From positions 1-39,490 of the IMG/VR virus record IMGVR_UViG_3300034105_003759: 39,490 nucleotides of DNA, one strand, 5' to 3'. A program made the translations under genes and the position numbers. Positions 3,713 through 21,723 of the stretch are shown here, piece by piece. The notes below the pieces were generated by a model. That model did no database searches. It saw nothing but the letters and a program-made list of their open reading frames with translations, and was not told the origin of the DNA. Source of the DNA: a virus. Each line of letters begins with the position of its first letter. The first letter of the stretch is position 1.

Positions 3713-4375
3713 ATGCTTTTAATTTCAATAGAACAAATGTTATCTTTTAAAGCTACTCAGATGATACCTGTTAAGTGCGACTTTTGTCAACAAAATTTTG
3801 AAAGAATGCAGAAGTATATAAAATCTGATTTTAAATTATATCCACGTTACAGTCATTACTGCTCTAAAGCTTGCGGTTCTAAATCAAAAGATGCAAGTGA
3901 AGAAGTGAATTGTAAGCGGTGTAATAAAGTGTTTTCAAAAAAACGCAATCAATTAAAAAAACATCCTAATTCCTTTTGTTCGTCTTCTTGCTCTGCTACT
4001 TACAATAATACTCATAAAACTCATGGATGCAGGAGATCGAAATTGGAAGTCTATTTTGAACGAGTATTGCCAATTAAATATCCAAATTTAGAATTTCATT
4101 TTAATCGTAAAGACACAATCAATTCTGAACTAGATATATATATTCCAAATCTCAAACTTGCTTTTGAGCTTAATGGCATTTTTCATTACGAACCAATTTA
4201 TGGTTTAAATAAACTAGATCAAATCAAGAGCAATGACCATCGTAAGTTTCAAGCTTGCTTAGAAAAGAATATTGAATTATGCATTATTGATACGTCTAGT
4301 TTAAATTACTTCAAACCAGATAAAGCTCAAAAATACTTAGATATTATAGTAAATATAATAAATTCGAAATTGTAA
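3713..4375 (+). CDS. EDxHD-type (Vsr-like) homing endonuclease with zinc ribbons
   Basis: A 220-aa protein. The N-terminal half has three Cys-rich zinc-ribbon-like segments (CDFC...CSKAC, CKRC, CSSSC; about residues 22-95). The C-terminal half carries a Vsr-type nuclease core: Glu112 in SKLEVYFE, Asp141 in ELDIYIP, Glu152 and His158 in FELNGIFHYE and Asp175 in SNDHRKF, the EDxHD pattern of phage homing endonucleases. It is a free-standing gene inserted, in opposite orientation, between tRNA-Leu and tRNA-Ile. The start is chosen at 3713 because of the GTGTA box 16 nt upstream; 3737 and 3761 are alternatives. Confidence 0.8.
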   Translation: MLLISIEQMLSFKATQMIPVKCDFCQQNFERMQKYIKSDFKLYPRYSHYCSKACGSKSKDASEEVNCKRCNKVFSKKRNQLKKHPNSFCSSSCSATYNNTHKTHGCRRSKLEVYFERVLPIKYPNLEFHFNRKDTINSELDIYIPNLKLAFELNGIFHYEPIYGLNKLDQIKSNDHRKFQACLEKNIELCIIDTSSLNYFKPDKAQKYLDIIVNIINSKL

Positions 4376-4807: not shown

Positions 4808-4865
4808 AAAAAAATGGTGCATCCGGTGGAAATCGAATCCACAACCAACAGATTAACTTACCACT

Positions 4866-5357
4866 TCAGCTTTCGCTGACCGTTTCCGTTGTGGTCTGGA
4901 CTTTATCATCATCATTACAGATGTCAAGCGTAAAGTCTCTGAGGATCCTATCTAGGTCTAAAAATTCATTTATATGATGAACTTTTGACTTTTGAAGATT
5001 CTTGCTTTCTTTATACCTGATAATAAAAACATTTTTATTTTCGCAAGCTAATTTAGCTGGAATAAAAAGCACTTTGTCTTGATCAGGAAGATAAACGCTA
5101 AACATATCAATGTCGCTAACTTTATAAGTATATCTATATCCATTAGGACCAGATTTTCTTAAAGCAAGTGTAGCAATTCCATTTTTTTCTTTAGCGTATT
5201 TAACTTGAATTTTTATTAACTTACTATTGCATTCGACTATCATGTCTATTTTAGAGTAGTCGCCAATTTCAGAAAAAACATTATATCCAAGCTTATGTAT
5301 CTCTTTTAAAGTAGCGGAGAATCCAAGATTACCTTTCTGTTTGCTATGTGTTATCAT
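4866..5357 (-). CDS. PD-(D/E)XK homing endonuclease encoded by the group I intron
   Basis: A 163-aa protein wholly inside the tRNA-Lys intron. Near the N-terminus lies a PD-(D/E)XK core, Asp38 in YSKIDMIVE and Gln51-x-Lys53 in IKIQVKYAK, the D...QxK variant also seen in intron-borne PD-(D/E)XK nucleases. These resemble I-Ssp6803I from a cyanobacterial tRNA-fMet intron. The protein would cut intronless tRNA-Lys genes to promote homing. The last ~25 codons are constrained by the RNA because they overlap P3', P7 and P8. A GTGTA box with TATAAT begins 16 nt before the ATG, so it can be expressed apart from the tRNA. Confidence 0.85.
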   Translation of the reverse strand: MITHSKQKGNLGFSATLKEIHKLGYNVFSEIGDYSKIDMIVECNSKLIKIQVKYAKEKNGIATLALRKSGPNGYRYTYKVSDIDMFSVYLPDQDKVLFIPAKLACENKNVFIIRYKESKNLQKSKVHHINEFLDLDRILRDFTLDICNDDDKVQTTTETVSES

Positions 5358-5373
5358 ATACTATATTATACAC
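5358..5373 (-). promoter_or_regulatory. GTGTA box / -10 upstream of the intron endonuclease
   Basis: On the minus strand GTGTATAATATAGTAT precedes the ATG at 5357; GTGTA starts 16 nt before it and includes a perfect TATAAT. This would give a nearly leaderless endonuclease mRNA from inside the intron. Confidence 0.5.
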
Positions 5374-5562
5374 ATAAACTGTCAGATTACTAATCTTTTA
5401 GTTTCCTGCGGATTGTCCAATCTTAAACATTTTTACTTTTTCAAGTAGCTTAAGCTCTAAGGAGTTTCCCGCATATGGCTCGATTCATTTCATATATTTC
5501 TATATGAACGCTCTTATTACCTAAGTCTGCTGCTCTACCGTTGAGCTACGGATGCATTAAAT

Positions 5563-5693: not shown

Positions 5694-6104
5694 ATGTTAG
5701 AAAAAGAAGAAAAAATCAAGCAACTGGCTTCTGAGGGCAAAAGCGGCAGAGAAATAGCAAAAGAACTTAAATGTTGCAGAAGTTTAGTCTCTTATCATTT
5801 AAATCCAGAGGGAAAAATCAAAAATTCCGAAAGAAAAAACAAAAATCGTTTGCGTTTTAAAAGTGAGTGCAGAAACAACTCAGGTGCAAAATGTCAATTT
5901 TGTGGATATAATAAATGTCAAGCGGCTTTACATTTTCACCATGTAGATCCAACAACAAAAAAATTTGGAATCTCAGATGCAATTTCTAATGGATACCCCA
6001 AAGAAGAAATAGAAGCTGAAATAAAAAAATGCGTGTTAATCTGTGCAAATTGCCATGTAGAAATACACACTAATTCTTTATCATTCTGCCCCCAACAATG
6101 TTAG
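5694..6104 (+). CDS. HNH endonuclease with N-terminal helix-turn-helix
   Basis: A 136-aa protein. Residues 1-40 look like a helix-turn-helix (LASEGKSGREIAKELKC then SLVSYHL), suited to DNA binding. The C-terminal half is an HNH nuclease: CQFCGYNKC, then LHFHHVDP and CVLICANCHVEIH, giving the two zinc Cys pairs and the catalytic His of the beta-beta-alpha-metal fold. It is a free-standing homing-type endonuclease, inserted opposite to the tRNA array. Its 3' end overlaps the convergent gene at 6070-6492 by 35 nt. The context before the ATG is TCATAAATAA, with no GTGTA box. Confidence 0.85.
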   Translation: MLEKEEKIKQLASEGKSGREIAKELKCCRSLVSYHLNPEGKIKNSERKNKNRLRFKSECRNNSGAKCQFCGYNKCQAALHFHHVDPTTKKFGISDAISNGYPKEEIEAEIKKCVLICANCHVEIHTNSLSFCPQQC

Positions 6105-15395: not shown

Positions 15396-15617
15396 TTAAT
15401 CGTGCAAATTTATATGCCTCATATCGAGTTCATCATACAAAATCGTATGAATCGCGTCAAGAGCTTCGTTTACATTTTCAAAATCGTTACCGTGCTTGCG
15501 GTAGCTTCTTAATCTTTCAGCAAGATGACAAATCACTGCGTACATATCAGCAGATTGATTTGCTATTTCAAATTGTTTTTGATCTTCAGGCAGATTGAAT
15601 TCTAATGTTGCTTTCAT
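15396..15617 (-). CDS. small conserved phage protein
   Basis: A 73-aa protein, MKATLEFNLPEDQKQFEIANQ..., with LAERLRSYRKHGND and an ending typical of a small phage family that starts KxxLEFxLPEDxxxF. No function is known to me. Its start overlaps the stop of the HNH gene (ATGA). Confidence 0.7.
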   Translation of the reverse strand: MKATLEFNLPEDQKQFEIANQSADMYAVICHLAERLRSYRKHGNDFENVNEALDAIHTILYDELDMRHINLHD

Positions 15618-16168
15618 ATAGTTCTGTAAAATTCTCCAACTAATTGTTTAAATTTAATGTCTCTGCTTGCAATAGCTTCTTCTACTGTATTAAATAATCC
15701 AATATAAATATCTTTGCCATCCACTTGCATGGCGCAGCGATACTTATTAAGTTTTTTAACAAAAGAAATATTTTTATGTCCGCTTAAGTTGTTTTTTTGT
15801 TTTTTCCGATTGAATTGGTTCTGAGATGCCGTAACAAGTCTTAAGTTTCGCGGGGAATTATTTAATACATTTCCATCTATATGATCTATTTGCTTGCCTT
15901 GGAAATCAATACTATTGTTGTAAATAGCGAATACAATTCTGTGGTTTGGATATCTGATCTTGTCAAGCCTTGAGTAATAGTATCCGTTTCCTAATATGCA
16001 TCCTGATGGATCATTTGAATTGTTTGTTTTCCATCTTTTGTGCATGGTTTCGTTTTTGAAATGGCTAAGAGGTCTATTAGAGGACCACCGGAGACCGCAA
16101 GGAAGCGAGGGATCTAAAACAAAACATTCTTTTAAATAATTAAGATCTGGAAGAGGGGTTATTTTCAT
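15614..16168 (-). CDS. HNH endonuclease with AP2-like DNA-binding domain
   Basis: A 184-aa homing-type endonuclease. The HNH core lies at about residues 75-120: NHRIVFAIYN, then IDHIDGNVLNNSPRNLRLVT with His and Asn ligands, followed by QNQFNRKK. The C-terminal KNISFVKKLNKYRCAMQVDGK and YIGLFNTVEEAIASRD form an AP2/ERF-like DNA-binding domain as in phage HNH-AP2 proteins. It is translationally coupled to the next small gene. Free-standing; target unknown. Confidence 0.9.
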   Translation of the reverse strand: MKITPLPDLNYLKECFVLDPSLPCGLRWSSNRPLSHFKNETMHKRWKTNNSNDPSGCILGNGYYYSRLDKIRYPNHRIVFAIYNNSIDFQGKQIDHIDGNVLNNSPRNLRLVTASQNQFNRKKQKNNLSGHKNISFVKKLNKYRCAMQVDGKDIYIGLFNTVEEAIASRDIKFKQLVGEFYRTI

Positions 16169-20535: not shown

Positions 20536-21723
20536 TTAATCGCCTTTTTCTATTCTGTAACTATCTTCTGGATAATCAGTGGTAGATACCTCTGTTATAA
20601 TTGAATTTTTTAAAGCTTGTATTTGATGCTCTACTCTTGGATTTAATAAAATTGTTTCCCCTTGTTTAAGAATAAAATAATCAGATGATCCATTTTTTTG
20701 GATAAAACATTCGAATTCACCCCAAGAAATAAGCCACAATTCTGATTTTATGTCATGAGAATGAAGACTAAATTTTTTTCCTTTAAAAAATATAAGGTGT
20801 TTTAAACAATATTTATTATTATTGCAGTAGTGTATTTCTAATCCCCAGCCTTTTTTAACAATTTTGCATCCAGAATTCAATCCAGTAAAGACTTGCTCCC
20901 AGAATGATCTTTCGTGATGCGTTAATGTGTGGCATCTTTTGCATAATGTTACTAAATTTGAATCGCCACAATCCTGTTTATCATAATTAATATGATGCAC
21001 TTCTAAATTATCATTAGAGTCGCACATTATACATTTGTGACCGTCTCTATTTTTTATAATAGGTTTTATTTTTCTAAATTCTCTAGGATAAGTTGGCTTA
21101 TTTGATTTAATTATATTTTCTCTATTGTCTCCATTTTTAGAGCAATTTAAACTGCAATAAATTCTTTTTTGATCTTTATGTAAATTGGTTCTTGTGTAAG
21201 AGAAAATTTTATTGCATCTTGGACAATTCCCTTTTTCCTTTTCTTGATCGCTTAAAAAGGCTGGATTATTTTCTCCTATTCTTAGTCTGCTGGAGGCAGA
21301 AGCGGAACACGTAATAGAGCAATATTTTCTTTCTGAATAGTGATTGAATTCTTCTTTACATTCTAAGCAAATACTAGTTTTGATTAAAAGTTTTTCTTTT
21401 TCAATGCTTTTCAATTGACATAATCTGTCGCAATACATTCTATGCCTTTCGCCATAGGGAACTGAAAAATTTTTACCACAGCACTGACAATCTATAGTAA
21501 GCGCAGGGTATTTCAGTTTTCTTGCTCCAAGCATTTTCTTTTTGTGAGCTTCTGAAAGAGTCCTTTTTTGAGCTATCCTTTTTTTTGCTCCCTCTTTTCT
21601 GGCGCAAGATTGGCAAAGGCGCGTTCCAAAATTTTCAAAAGATTTTTTTTGAATATCTTTTCTTTGTTCAAATGTAAATCCGCATGAAACGCAAGTAAAT
21701 TTTATTTTTCTTTTAATAGCCAT
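20536..21723 (-). CDS. fusion of zinc ribbons, HNH endonuclease and cupin domain
   Basis: A 395-aa protein with three parts. Residues ~8-200 hold a series of Cys pairs (CVSCG, CQSCA, CQCCGKNF, CLECKEEF, CPRCNKIF and CSxxC partners), i.e. about four zinc ribbons. Residues ~215-270 are an HNH nuclease (CIMCDSNDNLEVHHINY then LVTLCKRCHTLTHH). Residues ~285-395 are a single cupin barrel of the sugar-isomerase/mannose-1-phosphate type: KIVKKGWGLEIHY, KFSLHSHDIKSELW with metal-binding His and Glu, and LNPRVEHQIQA. No internal Met sits at the cupin boundary, so one polypeptide is likely. Combining a homing nuclease with a sugar cupin is unusual. Confidence 0.85.
   Translation of the reverse strand: MAIKRKIKFTCVSCGFTFEQRKDIQKKSFENFGTRLCQSCARKEGAKKRIAQKRTLSEAHKKKMLGARKLKYPALTIDCQCCGKNFSVPYGERHRMYCDRLCQLKSIEKEKLLIKTSICLECKEEFNHYSERKYCSITCSASASSRLRIGENNPAFLSDQEKEKGNCPRCNKIFSYTRTNLHKDQKRIYCSLNCSKNGDNRENIIKSNKPTYPREFRKIKPIIKNRDGHKCIMCDSNDNLEVHHINYDKQDCGDSNLVTLCKRCHTLTHHERSFWEQVFTGLNSGCKIVKKGWGLEIHYCNNNKYCLKHLIFFKGKKFSLHSHDIKSELWLISWGEFECFIQKNGSSDYFILKQGETILLNPRVEHQIQALKNSIITEVSTTDYPEDSYRIEKGD

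Follow-up and report, generated by a model that had tools for sequence, protein, structure and literature searches.

The split tRNA-Lys gene

The DNA analysed here, referred to as the window, is a stretch of 39,490 nt from one metagenomic virus record, whose gene matches include ThyX-like, tail-collar and tail-fibre-assembly proteins. On its minus strand a tRNA-Lys(UUU) gene is present in two parts. The 5' exon (nt 1-34 of the tRNA, 5555-5523, GCAUCCGUAGCUCAACGGUAGAGCAGCAGACUU) ends in GACUU, while the 3' exon (4856-4815, UUAAUCUGUUGGUUGUGGAUUCGAUUUCCACCGGAUGCACCA) runs from UUAAUCUG to CACCA and thus encodes the terminal CCA. When 5555-5523 is joined to 4856-4815, a perfect 75-nt cloverleaf with the anticodon UUU is obtained, which ARAGORN recognizes as tRNA-Lys(ttt). 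When introns are allowed, the program returns c[4815,5555] with an intron of 666 nt as the sole intron-containing tRNA in the 39.5 kb of the window. In 60 shuffles of the entire window that preserved dinucleotides it made one call, which was unrelated. The uniqueness of the call and the near-empty shuffles thus indicate that the split gene is real and not a chance pairing. The exons proposed in a preliminary description of this DNA agree with the ARAGORN boundaries to the base, and the U that it had noted ahead of the 666-nt insert and the terminal G of the insert are confirmed as U34 and G4857. In the window, the split gene is missed by both default ARAGORN and the Rfam tRNA model.

Intact phage tRNAs, such as the tRNA-Lys of Achromobacter phage Mano, match the joined exons through the junction, a similarity that would be expected if the intron is mobile. 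The preliminary description had considered an intact tRNA-Lys in close relatives lacking the exact insertion site as a refutation. Intact genes were found in other phages, and they do not refute the split gene because a mobile intron should have alleles that lack it.

Five intact tRNA genes lie near the split one. Directly upstream of it is a boxA-like motif, UUGUUCUUUAAAAUUU (5574-5559, minus strand), which resembles the boxA of rRNA antitermination. An exact second copy at 4809-4794 (minus) precedes a 68-nt structured RNA, and a near-match with two mismatches at 3629-3614 (minus) lies ahead of a tRNA-Leu. The 68-nt element (4792-4725, minus) has a tRNA-like fold, with a 6-bp closing stem, a 10-bp arm and a 5-bp arm (z -5.25); it was called by no tRNA finder and had no match among phage records. 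The window also contains four endonuclease-like genes, two of which stand among the tRNA genes: two HNH genes (5694-6104, plus; 15614-16168, minus), a weak HNH match (20536-21723, minus), and a Cys-rich protein gene (3713-4375, plus) that looks EDxHD/Vsr-like by eye and is without a significant family match.

Fold of the intron

The insert (5522-4857, minus strand) begins with AGGUAA and ends with GUAAG. It sits between U34 and U35, and its limits are set by the ARAGORN boundaries, by a covariance-model match ending at 4857 and by homology to an ORF-less relative in a 230 kb phage contig (L006). An internal guide, UAAGAG (5516-5511), can be read from the sequence: its GAG pairs with CUU of the 5' exon, forming P1, and its UAA with UUA of the 3' exon, forming P10. 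At the 5' splice site, U34 precedes the intron and forms a U.G wobble with G5513 of the guide, and the intron closes with G4857; the same arrangement is found at the junctions of kin introns. P1 of the Lys intron amounts to only 3 bp, which we count against the best explanation given below.

All helices from P2 to P9b, in addition to P1, can be drawn in the Lys intron itself. The preliminary description had recognized P3, P4 and P7; these are present, as are P1, P2, P5, P6, P8, P9 and P9b. Pairing was scored across 25 introns on a trimmed global alignment, since the MAFFT default misplaced P4-P6 of the Lys intron. P2 is an 8-bp hairpin with a GAAA loop (5508-5489), paired in 88% of cells with 61 compensatory cells. 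The 5' strand of P3, UCGAGC (5483-5478), faces GCUUGA at 4929-4924; P3 is paired in 62% of cells, with the alignment partly out of register, and shows 44 compensatory cells versus 18.5 in shuffles. P4 (5473-5468 with 5412-5407) and P5 occupy 5473-5407, a region touched by a partial RF00028 match (5473-5384). P4 is paired in 53% of cells, so its support in the cross-family alignment is weak, and the low values of P4 and P6a stem in part from out-of-register alignment. P6 (5406-5405 with 4944-4943) is paired in all cells and P6a (5401-5399 with 4950-4948) in 40%; together they span 5406-4943, with an ORF in the loop. P7, G(a)GACUU/AAGUCC, is formed by G4939, a bulged A4938 and 4937-4933 with 4903-4898, and is paired in 25 of 25 introns. 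It encloses the 3' strand of P3 and P8 (4923-4920 with 4913-4910; 95%), the whole covering 4939-4898, and both P7 and P8 show compensatory changes. P9 (4895-4891 with 4864-4860; 97%) and P9b (4879-4875 with 4870-4866; 95%) complete the structure, from 4895 to the terminal G4857. Thus P2, P6, P7, P8, P9 and P9b are paired in 88-100% of cells, and for the whole structure the figures are 81% of cells and 196 compensatory cells, compared with 32-51% paired when the pairing is slid. The P3-P8 and P4-P6 domains of a group I core, with the guanosine site in P7, are found, with P3 and P4 paired in the Lys intron and weakly across the alignment.

Of the tool checks that the preliminary description had proposed, ARAGORN in intron mode supported the U34/U35 junction, whereas Rfam did not follow: in the window, RF00028 gave two partial pieces, at 5473-5384 and 5034-4876, whose scores of 23.7 bits (E 1e-3) and 16.1 bits (E 0.19) are both below the cut-off of 50. 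A family covariance model of 100 positions, built from the 3' halves of 16 phage tRNA introns with the window excluded, gave one match for the 3' half, at 4946-4857 (84 bits, E 6.7e-19), which ends exactly at the terminal G. The same model detects the tRNA introns of L006, L093, L130, L099, L266, L269, L270, L272, L259 and L260. With this match and the compensatory changes, the proposal of a group I intron in the anticodon of a phage tRNA-Lys holds: as far as sequence can tell, the 666-nt insert is a group I intron lying within the anticodon of tRNA-Lys(UUU) in a phage. It may belong to subgroup IC3, whose layout it fits with its insertion in the anticodon loop, its P2 and P9 of the tRNA-intron type and its kin in tRNAs.

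The protein encoded in the P6 loop

The loop of P6 contains an ORF of 163 aa (5357-4866, minus strand), which was absent from the preliminary description. It matches PF11645 (E 6.9e-18) and PHROG 5018, and its nearest solved relative is I-Ssp6803I (PDB 2OST; phmmer E 4.5e-5), known as the homing endonuclease encoded in the tRNA-fMet intron of Synechocystis. The AlphaFold2 model (pLDDT 76.5) finds 2OST by Foldseek with an E-value of 4.6e-10, the best other protein reaching 3.3e-4. By both its PF11645 domain and its modelled 2OST fold, the predicted product is a PD-(D/E)XK family member of the I-Ssp6803I type. D38 and Q51-V52-K53 are kept at the catalytic positions, and D38, Q51 and K53 are invariant in the nuclease alignment. 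The GxxGE motif of the siblings in L099 and L130 is replaced by GNLGF, so that Phe13 occupies the position of the helix-1 Glu, and nuclease activity is uncertain because of this change with respect to the closest siblings; the homolog in L136 also has Phe at this position.

The Pfam domain stops near 4962, and P7-P9b are crossed by the final ~27 codons of the ORF. As the ORF overlaps the 3' half of the ribozyme, its translation could disturb folding, and the same overlap is common to the siblings in L099 (tRNA-Thr UGU) and L130 (tRNA-Lys). In the close relative in L006, the corresponding P6 loop lacks an ORF, and the ORF can thus be regarded as a separable module. A hairpin at the ORF start, as in T4-like translational control, was no better than shuffles (z -0.64). 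Scans of the viral contigs with peptide patterns gave no kin for the nuclease of the Lys intron and only its own contig for that of L130. An in-frame stop was met for L071 in the peptide alignment. In Synechococcus phage Sf-FR1, a PD-(D/E)XK gene of the same family lies between tRNA-Arg and tRNA-Val (L256, PV340855.1, 1989-2423).

Kin introns and their host tRNAs

DNA patterns of the 3' core were effective in finding kin in viral contigs. The ORF-less homolog of L006 occupies the same tRNA-Lys site and matches at 85% over 95 nt and 79% over 133 nt. Overall, tRNA-Lys introns are present in some eight further phage contigs (L002, L006, L009, L093, L269, L270, L272 and L130); the junction lies after U35 in L130, unlike the U34 of the rest. 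L002 (LR756508.1, 484 kb) carries a tRNA-Lys(UUU) intron, and the loci of L004 and L009 are near-identical, with a putative HNH-like ORF. Near the split tRNAs of L002 lies a HEARO RNA (2165-2389; RF02033, 144 bits).

The scans of viral contigs gave at least 136 core sites, the window included, of which at least 101 lie inside ARAGORN intron-tRNAs, some miscalled. Since ARAGORN mislabels some kin (L093 as Ser, L121 as Lys, L130 as Gln), splice sites of the kin were reassigned with the U.G and terminal-G rule, and at least 77 viral introns were kept by the U34/terminal-G rule and anticodon-stem pairing. Among the matches listed, the anticodons are UAA (52), UCU (12) and UUU (5), with one to three cases each of UAG, UGA, UCA, UGU and UUG, and the anticodon loop opens with CUU before the junction in nearly all. 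As the scan is biased by its patterns, these counts are not prevalences. L268, L271, L273, L274 and L275 have Lys-like 3' exons with no tRNA assembled and were not counted; L008, L010 and L012 were rejected, having no ARAGORN intron-tRNA call and looking like introns in other genes, and L013 looks like a chance match. Two tRNA-Leu(UAA) genes were also met, one unannotated in the cultured Agrobacterium phage Atu_ph07 with a 278-nt group I intron (L259, NC_042013.1, 1994-2355), the other in a 735-kb phage record with a 205-nt intron of the Lys-intron family (L260, LR756501.1, 1494-1784).

Among confidently spliced cellular matches, 55 of 57 are tRNA-Arg(UCU). The terminal-G pattern had no match in 399 genomes of one phylum and four in 297 genomes of another, three in Arg and one in Lys. 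In one bacterial chromosome (L266, G651:C5), a group I intron of 327 nt interrupts a tRNA-Lys(UUU) gene after U34, and ordinary chromosomal genes, one resembling aspS, lie beside it. When 53 introns were placed in a tree, the Lys intron of the window grouped with L006, then with L059 (Leu), L093, L130 and L099 (Thr), while L270 and L272 joined Leu introns and L002 joined Arg introns. Five changes are needed to account for Lys in this tree, at least two of which are forced by well-supported branches. The simplest reading of these relationships is that introns have moved between U34 tRNAs.

Interpretation

Given the exon anatomy, boundaries, homology, covariation and protein family described above, the best explanation as a whole, which we regard as very probable, is that group I splicing restores the tRNA-Lys and that the nuclease, if active, spreads the intron. 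The phage would transcribe a single precursor across the split gene, and the intron RNA would fold into a group I ribozyme of the tRNA-intron type, close to IC3. The 5' splice site would be held by the short P1 (CUU with GAG, including the U34.G wobble) and by the anticodon stem that both exons form. Guanosine would then attack after U34, and the exons would be ligated at the terminal G, generating the anticodon UUU in a working tRNA-Lys that could be charged. The protein of the I-Ssp6803I family from the P6 loop may, if active, cut the anticodon region of U34 tRNA genes that lack the intron, leading to the intron being copied in by homing. The shared position of kin in tRNA genes for Lys, Arg, Leu and Thr is proposed to reflect cutting of U34 anticodon regions by such a nuclease, if active.

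Three other explanations deserve consideration. The element might be dying, with an intron that no longer splices or a nuclease that is dead, leaving either a tRNA-Lys pseudogene or a splicing-only relic late in the homing cycle. The Phe at the sibling Glu position fits this possibility, as does the lack of a clear Shine-Dalgarno sequence ahead of the ORF start. However, the cloverleaf is intact with its CCA, all ribozyme helices pair in the Lys intron, the ORF is intact with D38, Q51 and K53 kept, and the Phe is shared by L136, and we consider a dying element unlikely. An interrupted anticodon loop is also what archaeal tRNA introns produce, as is generally known, and the insert might be spliced by proteins at a bulge-helix-bulge or be otherwise unrelated to group I. 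An insert of 666 nt with group I P2-P9, a terminal G and a U.G at the 5' site, together with the family-model match and the compensatory changes, makes this extremely improbable. Equally negligible is the chance that two unrelated tRNA halves were paired or that the assembly is at fault; although the window is a single metagenomic virus record, the shuffles argue against chance, and the same junction recurs in independent phage contigs and in a bacterial chromosome.

Restoration of tRNA-Lys by group I splicing, with spread by a possibly active nuclease, is thus preferred. The element is an ordinary tRNA intron of group I in a host gene that is apparently unreported: its kind is known, and both the host gene and the phage tRNA setting appear new within the literature searched. 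The preliminary description had called the site unfamiliar; this stands insofar as no earlier report was found, but the case is not isolated, given the other phage contigs and the chromosome. These data would add tRNA genes to the protein genes already known to contain phage group I introns, and point to split tRNAs of phages as a common class, overlooked by standard tRNA and Rfam searches. As such searches overlook split genes, published phage tRNA counts can be low, as exemplified by the tRNA-Leu(UAA) of Atu_ph07. We tentatively suggest, at somewhat less than even confidence, that phages serve as a main reservoir for group I introns of a family targeting the U33-U34 anticodon step, which would have moved repeatedly among U34 tRNAs (Leu, Arg, Lys, Thr, Ser, Gln) as well as between phages and bacterial chromosomes, and that many "missing" phage tRNA genes are split. 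Movement of introns between tRNAs thereby becomes testable.

Comparison with known systems

Phage group I introns known by 2014 were all in protein genes, despite the many phage tRNAs (Hausner et al. 2014, PMC3984707). "Enigmatic" introns, none reported earlier, were described in tRNAs of Lak megaphages, with tRNA-Tyr and tRNA-Thr named and no intron class given in the accessible part of the paper (Devoto et al. 2019, PMC6784885). The main text of the huge-phage and Atu_ph07 papers does not mention introns, and both data sets contain split tRNAs. tRNAscan-SE is stated as not designed for the detection of group I introns (PMC8450103). No earlier report of a group I intron in a phage tRNA-Lys(UUU) was found in a search that covered literature outside subscription papers.

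The T4 td, nrdB and sunY introns, those of Twort and that of the KIL portal gene likewise belong to phages and to group I, and may or may not carry homing endonucleases; they lie in protein genes, whereas the present one lies in a tRNA gene. The Lak introns, likened here from their description only, share the setting of a phage tRNA gene and differ in the tRNAs named and in the class not being given in the part of the source available, here a tRNA-Lys and group I. The Synechocystis tRNA-fMet intron carries in I-Ssp6803I a gene of the same PD-(D/E)XK family within an anticodon-region group I intron; the present case differs in its phage tRNA-Lys, in an identity of 16-20% over the folds and in having GxxGF versus the GxxGE of the closest siblings. 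The cyanobacterial tRNA-Leu intron is inserted after U34 (CUU|AA) and has a short P1 and a terminal G, and the exons of such tRNA introns are reportedly held by the anticodon stem, a result that goes back to Zaug in 1993, as cited in PMC3984707. From this established knowledge, the two are alike in the after-U34 site, the short P1, the holding of the exons and the terminal G, and they differ in the tRNA-Lys(UUU), the phage genome and the ORF found here. Finally, bacterial tRNA-Arg(UCU) group I introns have the same junction, CUU|CUAA, and the same core, although they are in Arg and not Lys and are mostly chromosomal and too short for an ORF.
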